Notes under the pieces: model-generated
Seen by the model: the letters and a program-made list of their open reading frames with translations, nothing else
Database searches by the model: none
What the model was told of the DNA's origin: nothing
Assembly: GCA_011389685.1 (NCBI GenBank)
Contig: JAABTV010000009.1
Location: 1 to 64,000 of the forward strand
Reading direction: 5' to 3'
From: Paracoccaceae bacterium
GTDB taxonomy: Bacteria; Pseudomonadota; Alphaproteobacteria; Rhodobacterales; Rhodobacteraceae
Length of the DNA: 64,000 nucleotides
Shown: positions 30,035 through 43,348 of the stretch, piece by piece
Layout of the letters: each line of letters opens with the position of its first letter
Position numbering within the stretch: the first letter of the stretch is position 1
Program-made: the position numbers and the translations under genes

Positions 30035-30388
30035 ATGAGCACTCCGATTTCCTCGATCCGCAATCTTGGCCCCGCGACCGAGGCGGCCTTTGCCCGCGCC
30101 GGGATCACCTCGGCCGAGGAACTGCGCGAGATCGGCGCCGACGCCGCCTATGCACGGCTCCTCGAAACCGGACAGCGCCCGCATTTCATCGCCTATTACG
30201 TGCTGGTCATGGGGCTTCAGGGGCGCCCGTGGAACGATTGCAAGGGCGACGAGAAAGCCGCCCTGCGCAAGCGATTCGACGCGATCAAGGCCAGCGGACA
30301 TGACAAGGGCCGCTCCGATCTCGAAGCGGCCCTCAACGCGATTGGCGTTGTCGAACGAAAGACAGGCGTTCTCGGGAACACCCGCTAA
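30035..30388 (+). CDS. TfoX C-terminal-domain protein
   Basis: A 117-aa protein matching the C-terminal half of the competence regulator TfoX/Sxy, an HhH-like helical domain: ISSIRNLGPATEAAFARAGI then AYYVLVMGLQGRPWNDC. It lacks the TfoX N-terminal domain, as do many alphaproteobacterial stand-alone versions, so a role in competence should not be assumed. The final residues and the TAA stop are provided by, or abut, the palindromic element at 30385; the natural C-terminus may have been changed. Confidence 0.8.
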   Translation: MSTPISSIRNLGPATEAAFARAGITSAEELREIGADAAYARLLETGQRPHFIAYYVLVMGLQGRPWNDCKGDEKAALRKRFDAIKASGHDKGRSDLEAALNAIGVVERKTGVLGNTR

Positions 30389-30499
30389 AGCGTTCCGCGA
30401 AAAACCTGCAACACAGCTTTTGCGGAACGCGCGCTTTGCTTATTTGATGTGCAGCGTTCCACCTTATCCCTGTCTCAGGTATAAGGTGGAACGCTTTAG
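30385..30499. mobile_element. 115-bp palindromic interspersed element (MITE/REP-like)
   Basis: It is bounded by perfect 12-bp inverted repeats CTAAAGCGTTCC (30385-30396) and GGAACGCTTTAG (30488-30499). Inside are two hairpins: GCGTTCCGC/GCGGAACGC (30390-30430) and a perfect 15-bp stem AGCGTTCCACCTTAT with its complement (30453-30495). It has no coding capacity. The T-A-A of the left end is the stop codon of the TfoX-like gene. Confidence 0.7.
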
Positions 30500-30571: not shown

Positions 30572-30994
30572 TTAACCGACCAGTTCGAGACCCGAGAAGA
30601 AGAACGCGATCTCTTCCTTCGCCGTGTCCGCCCCGTCCGACCCGTGGACCGAGTTTTCCCCGATCGACAGCGCGAATTCCTTGCGGATGGTGCCCGCCTC
30701 GGCCTCGGCGGGGTTGGTCGCGCCCATGATCTCGCGGTTCCTGGCAATGGCGTTCTCGCCTTCCAGCACCTGCACCACGATCGGCTCGGAAATCATGAAC
30801 TCGCACAGCTCGTCAAAGAACGGCCGCTCCTTGTGGACGCCGTAAAAGGTCTGCGCCTGCTCCAGCGTCAGCCGGATGCGTTTGGACGCGACCACGCGCA
30901 GCCCGCCATCTTCCAGCATCGCGGTGATCTTGCCGGTCAGGTTGCGGCGGGTGGCGTCGGGTTTGATGATGCTGAACGTGCGTTCGAGTGCCAT
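30572..30994 (-). CDS. ndk: nucleoside diphosphate kinase
   Basis: A 140-aa enzyme that equilibrates nucleoside di- and triphosphates via a phosphohistidine. The N-terminus [15 protein letters not shown] and the active-site NSVHGSD (catalytic His) are exact family motifs, and the length is usual. AGGAG precedes the start. It is convergent with the TfoX-like gene, with structured DNA between. Confidence 0.97.
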
Positions 30995-34726: not shown

Positions 34727-34835
34727 TTAACCTCTGGCGTTCATCCTTTGGCAAGAATTACCCGGCAGCCGGGCGGCAGCCGGGAGTCATACGCATGTCA
34801 CCCCCCTGTCCGGCGCCGCAGAACCGGCGTTAACC
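34727..34835 (+). repeat. TTAACC-bounded dispersed element, copy B
   Basis: TTAACC (34727) and TTAACC (34830) are 103 bp apart. The core at 34760-34783 matches copy A at 22 of 24 positions, and ATGTCACCCC follows (34795). It begins 16 bp after the aldolase stop and ends 80 bp before the GntR regulator start. Confidence 0.6.
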
Positions 34836-43303: not shown

Positions 43304-43348
43304 AACGGGCGGTGGGTTGACACCCACCCTACACAAGAGGTCAACGCC

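Follow-up and report, generated by a model that had tools for sequence, protein, structure and literature searches.

The element at positions 30385-30499 of the window (the whole 64,000-nucleotide stretch of Paracoccaceae bacterium DNA analysed here) belongs to a family of dispersed two-hairpin repeats of Rhodobacterales-type bacteria that insert into the dinucleotide TA, duplicate it, and still differ in presence between strains. It is, with high probability, a non-autonomous MITE-like element with the two-armed anatomy of CIR repeats (Caulobacter CcrM-associated intergenic repeats), moved in trans into the TA of the target YTAR in a manner that restores a stop codon lying there. What the present analysis adds to an earlier note on this DNA is how such insertion works: it falls exactly on a TA and, where that TA is part of a stop codon, restores the codon.

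Anatomy of the Window Copy

Position match and fold confirm the 12-bp ends, the 115-bp spacing and the two inner hairpins that the earlier note had described: the ends, CTAAAGCGTTCC and GGAACGCTTTAG, lie at exactly 30385-30396 and 30488-30499, and the hairpins between them have a folding energy of -57.7 kcal/mol (z = -8.9), a stability equalled by 0 of 200 shuffles. A covariance model scan finds a single copy in the window, scoring 126.6 bits with model R1 and comprising, on the forward strand, flanking target bases, TA duplications and core. The two TAs enclose the element proper, or mobile core AAGCG...CGCTT, of 109 bp (30388-30496, forward strand; 111 bp in the putA copy of Aliiroseovarius), as delimited by empty and filled sites and by the end composition of 102 copies; the outermost C and G belong to the target. 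Both TAs, the left at 30386-30387 and the right at 30497-30498, are read directly from the sequence, and their origin by duplication is indicated by the empty and filled sites and the end composition. Within the core, all on the forward strand, hairpin 1 (GCGTTCCGCG...GCGGAACGC, loop motif ACCTGnnnCAC) spans 30390-30430 according to fold, covariation and GANTC count, the linker joining both arms spans 30431-30452 according to fold, and hairpin 2 (GCGTTCCACC...GGTGGAACGC, loop motif CTGTCTCAG) spans 30453-30495 according to fold and covariation. The element has no coding capacity, as had been claimed.

Two convergent genes, both recognised by ORF and domain match, adjoin it: ndk (nucleoside diphosphate kinase; 30572-30994, reverse strand) on one side and, on the other, a TfoX_C-domain gene (tfoX; 30035-30388, forward strand). 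The TAA of the left end (30386-30388), whose first two bases are the left TA, stands in frame and closes this 117-aa ORF (TfoX_C, E = 5.5e-19), and is thus the stop of the upstream ORF, as the earlier note had it.

Hairpin pairing is maintained across the family, with covariation in both arms: 16 pairs have changed on both sides, and such cells number 58 as against 18 in shuffles, neither value being reached in any of 500 shuffles and the signal collapsing once partners are slid. The motif GANTC occurs in the loop of arm 1 (position 24) in 51 of 102 copies and in the loop 1 region 55 times, where shuffling predicts 5.6; the window copy has CAACA there and no GANTC. Single-hairpin copies exist too. 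The pairing may be kept for transposition or for effects on RNA ends.

Copies and Hosts

The element is not single-copy: a blastn search of the source assembly (the window's own genome, G000) detects about nine copies, six full-length and several partial, and the two further genomes of the genus also contain copies by blastn. A covariance model based on 21 copies matches (E <= 1e-5) in 24 of 397 genomes of the host family, many of these 24 having at least nine scored candidates, and in a pattern scan G352, G385 and G099 each give 38-61 matches resembling the ends, as against 8-13 for the reversed control. Named hosts are plasmids of Roseovarius, Aliiroseovarius, Tritonibacter and Octadecabacter, together with one Roseovarius contig. 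Since copies within a genome are about 93-96% identical in G099, G352 and G385 and 72-85% identical in most others, activity differs from lineage to lineage. Searches of Rfam with the element gave no relevant match, those against phages no match, and those of the literature on Rhodobacterales MITEs nothing relevant.

Other repeats were seen along the way. A 24-bp perfect palindrome in G385 (TAAAGCGTTTCGCGAAACGCTTTA; C300:46193-46216) resembles two element ends fused with the interior lost. A repeat of about 42 bp in the window (34764-34805, ggcagccgggcggcagccgggagtcatacgcatgtcaccccc) contains GANTC and has dozens of sites across the three genomes of the genus, and yet another dispersed repeat, lying about 80 bp to the right of an element copy in the window's own genome (C48:12894-12980), has many matches of 75-90% identity in all three.

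Insertion Into TA

The ends of 102 copies follow the consensus Y-TA-AAGCG...CGCTT-TA-R, in which the TA is nearly fixed (T85 and A90); the base outside it is variable (C60/T26/A12/G4), as target sequence should be. Comparison of filled with empty sites identifies the target as the TA inside YTAR and shows that this TA is duplicated. In Aliiroseovarius crassostreae, six strains without the element read GAGC-TA-AACCG at putA and two strains with it (S204 and S056) read GAGC-TA-AAGCG...CGCTT-TA-AACGG, the difference being the core plus one TA. At the C53 locus, the site is filled in the window's own genome (TCACG-CTA-AAGCG) and empty in G002, a sister species (TCACGCTAG); at rlmE, G002, which lacks the element, has CTAG. 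A second locus is also polymorphic between strains, with edges less clean, and in a nested case one copy has entered another at a TA, which again flanks it on both sides.

Stop Codons at the Element Ends

Insertion next to the end of a gene whose stop is then provided by the element, as suggested beforehand for tfoX, recurs across the family. Among 143 testable ends (those towards which a coding-like ORF reads, gene calls near copies being heuristic), the neighbouring gene stops exactly at the element TAA in 30, against a background of about 0.5 stops per position over the preceding 50 bases. Recognisable genes among these include rlmE, and the end of putA is annotated there by NCBI's pipeline. 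In relatives lacking the element at C53, rlmE or putA, the site reads CTAG or CTAA and the encoded protein has an identical end; the protein is unchanged at these loci and at tfoX because CTAG or CTAA becomes C-TAA. Neutrality therefore follows from the end sequence: the core's first A, placed behind the TA of a TAG or TAA, gives TAA. An exception occurs in G002 (C11; L055, 1497-1702), where two adjacent copies stand at the end of a gene that continues into the element, so that ...FRAPG at its C-terminus is replaced by ...FRAQERSA.

In the mechanism that we propose, a trans-acting transposase, probably of the DDE type, would insert the core AAGCG...CGCTT at the TA within YTAR, preferably CTAG, and duplicate that TA; a TAG or TAA stop hit in this way would be rebuilt as TAA with the host C-terminus kept, and insertions inside genes would presumably be purged. 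Copies would gather at gene 3' ends because CTAG is concentrated at stops and between genes and because of that presumed purging. Non-genic sites near copies overlap a stop codon in 27% of cases for CTAG, 14% for CTAA/TTAG and 9% for TTAA, and non-genic insertions lie at stops in 32 of 85 cases (38%), where 17% is predicted from the target mix used (p = 4e-6). The overlap with stop codons is an observation; the twofold excess over available targets is provisional, since the gene caller is heuristic and truncating in-frame insertions are also counted. Convergent gaps hold 42 of 89 copies, against 11 of 55 in the background, and divergent gaps are avoided. On balance we lean towards reading the whole as a CIR-type, TA-duplicating family whose ends, together with YTAR, make insertion into TAG or TAA protein-neutral, stops being safe landing sites on either strand at which about a third of copies are found, roughly twice what target availability predicts. 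Selection may be the reason for the siting.

Elsewhere, in G352 (C11:9000-13200), two copies, one of them truncated, enclose a gene for a predicted membrane protein of 257 aa, and a pyrF-like gene takes its stop codon from the first copy; this may be a composite unit.

Alternative Explanations

That the insertion altered the C-terminus of the TfoX-like protein, as the earlier note had suggested, could draw on the element TAA being the tfoX stop codon and on the variation of TfoX C-termini between genera, with the G001 protein ending earlier; it is essentially refuted by G002, where tfoX without the element encodes the identical ...GVLGNTR end followed by its own TAG (an empty site that is not clean, since there is a difference of about 300 bp beside it), and the same neutrality at C53, rlmE and putA leaves the suggestion scarcely credible. 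A different possibility is that, once arrived, the elements were domesticated and kept by selection as structures of the 3' end that stabilise mRNA or terminate transcription. Such a role would suit the strong covariation of the hairpins, their very stable fold, the position behind stop codons, and the enrichment in convergent and avoidance of divergent gaps, but target choice and purging can also give this siting, presence varies between strains and is patchy (24 of 397 genomes), and no T run of terminator type is found at the window element, so that we regard domestication as unlikely.

The third possibility, that these are REP or REPIN sequences moved by a RAYT (Y1) transposase, in the form of two inverted hairpins preceded by a fixed short motif, bears on the earlier note's "MITE or REP-type", of which the MITE half is supported and the REP half is not. 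Like REP/BIME/REPIN sequences, the repeats are intergenic and pair two inverted hairpins, whose loop and flanking CTAAAG are conserved; single-hairpin copies occur, and the window's own genome encodes one Y1 (RAYT-like) protein, Y1_Tnp. Insertion into the TA within YTAR, however, duplicates the TA, which makes the element MITE-like and not REP; neither insertion without target duplication nor flanking of the RAYT gene by this repeat, features of REP/REPIN systems, is found here. The local Y1 gene (C30:6710-7228; 1405-1923 of locus L101) has inverted GTAGGGTGGGTG...CACCCACCCTAC palindromes in its downstream flank, a different sequence that is probably a REPIN family belonging to this gene, and its locus contains no TAAAGCG. 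RAYT was therefore rejected as mobiliser, and the REP explanation, largely refuted by the TA duplication at empty sites, is very improbable. One exact GTAGGGTGGGTG occurs in the window at 43321-43332 on the reverse strand.

As for a mobiliser of the MITE-like element, the IS630 candidate was rejected, as a domain search finds DDE_3 absent from the window's own genome and from G352, G385 and G354, all of which have many copies; around IS630-like genes in G247 and G099, inspection of nearby TAAAGCG gave no convincing flanking pair. No IS-sized pair of these ends carrying a transposase was found, and a 1.1-kb inverted end pair in G352 (C11) is no IS but an ordinary gene with a repeat copy on either side. 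IS5/IS427-type elements may be candidate mobilisers.

Relation to Known Systems

Frequent gene ends at such repeats are explained by an element that rebuilds the stop codon hit, a simple strategy of neutral insertion, and call for caution in annotation: in these genomes a mobile element forms the end of many genes and leaves the protein unchanged. The element shows the terminal inverted repeats, absent coding capacity and dispersed copies of MITEs, with target site duplication at putA (empty and filled strains) and C53. Like RUP, Correia and ERIC-type MITEs, it is about 100-130 bp long, non-coding and palindromic, with TA duplication and presumed movement in trans, but it forms two separate arms and not one end-to-end stem, and no matching IS was found. 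IS630 and IS870 are described as also targeting the TA within CTAG (Tenzen and Ohtsubo 1991, cited in PMC2170065; Fournier 1993, cited in PMC6471742), and for IS870 the CTAG is said to make the stop of its own ORF; here the stop codon rebuilt is that of the host gene, and no such transposase was found in the key genomes.

A close likeness is that to CIR repeats, which the published summary describes as alphaproteobacterial, about 110 bp long and mostly intergenic, with two arms and a linker, TA at the termini, GANTC exposed in the loop of one arm, and a mobility mechanism that it gives as undetermined (Chen and Shapiro 2003, as summarised in PMC2229807). The present family has two hairpin arms and a linker over about 110 bp, TA at its termini, and GANTC at one loop position in half of the copies (51/102). 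Whether the element simply is the CIR already described, sequence family included, we judge to be evenly balanced: the published anatomy agrees, while the likeness is one of description and the window copy lacks GANTC; the element is accordingly called CIR-like by that description. The element here has inverted repeats at its termini, duplicates TA at a YTAR target and is mobile at the level of strains, all of them features that the review records as absent or unknown for CIR, and so offers direct evidence on how CIR-like repeats move in alphaproteobacteria, by precise TA insertion that is still polymorphic among strains.
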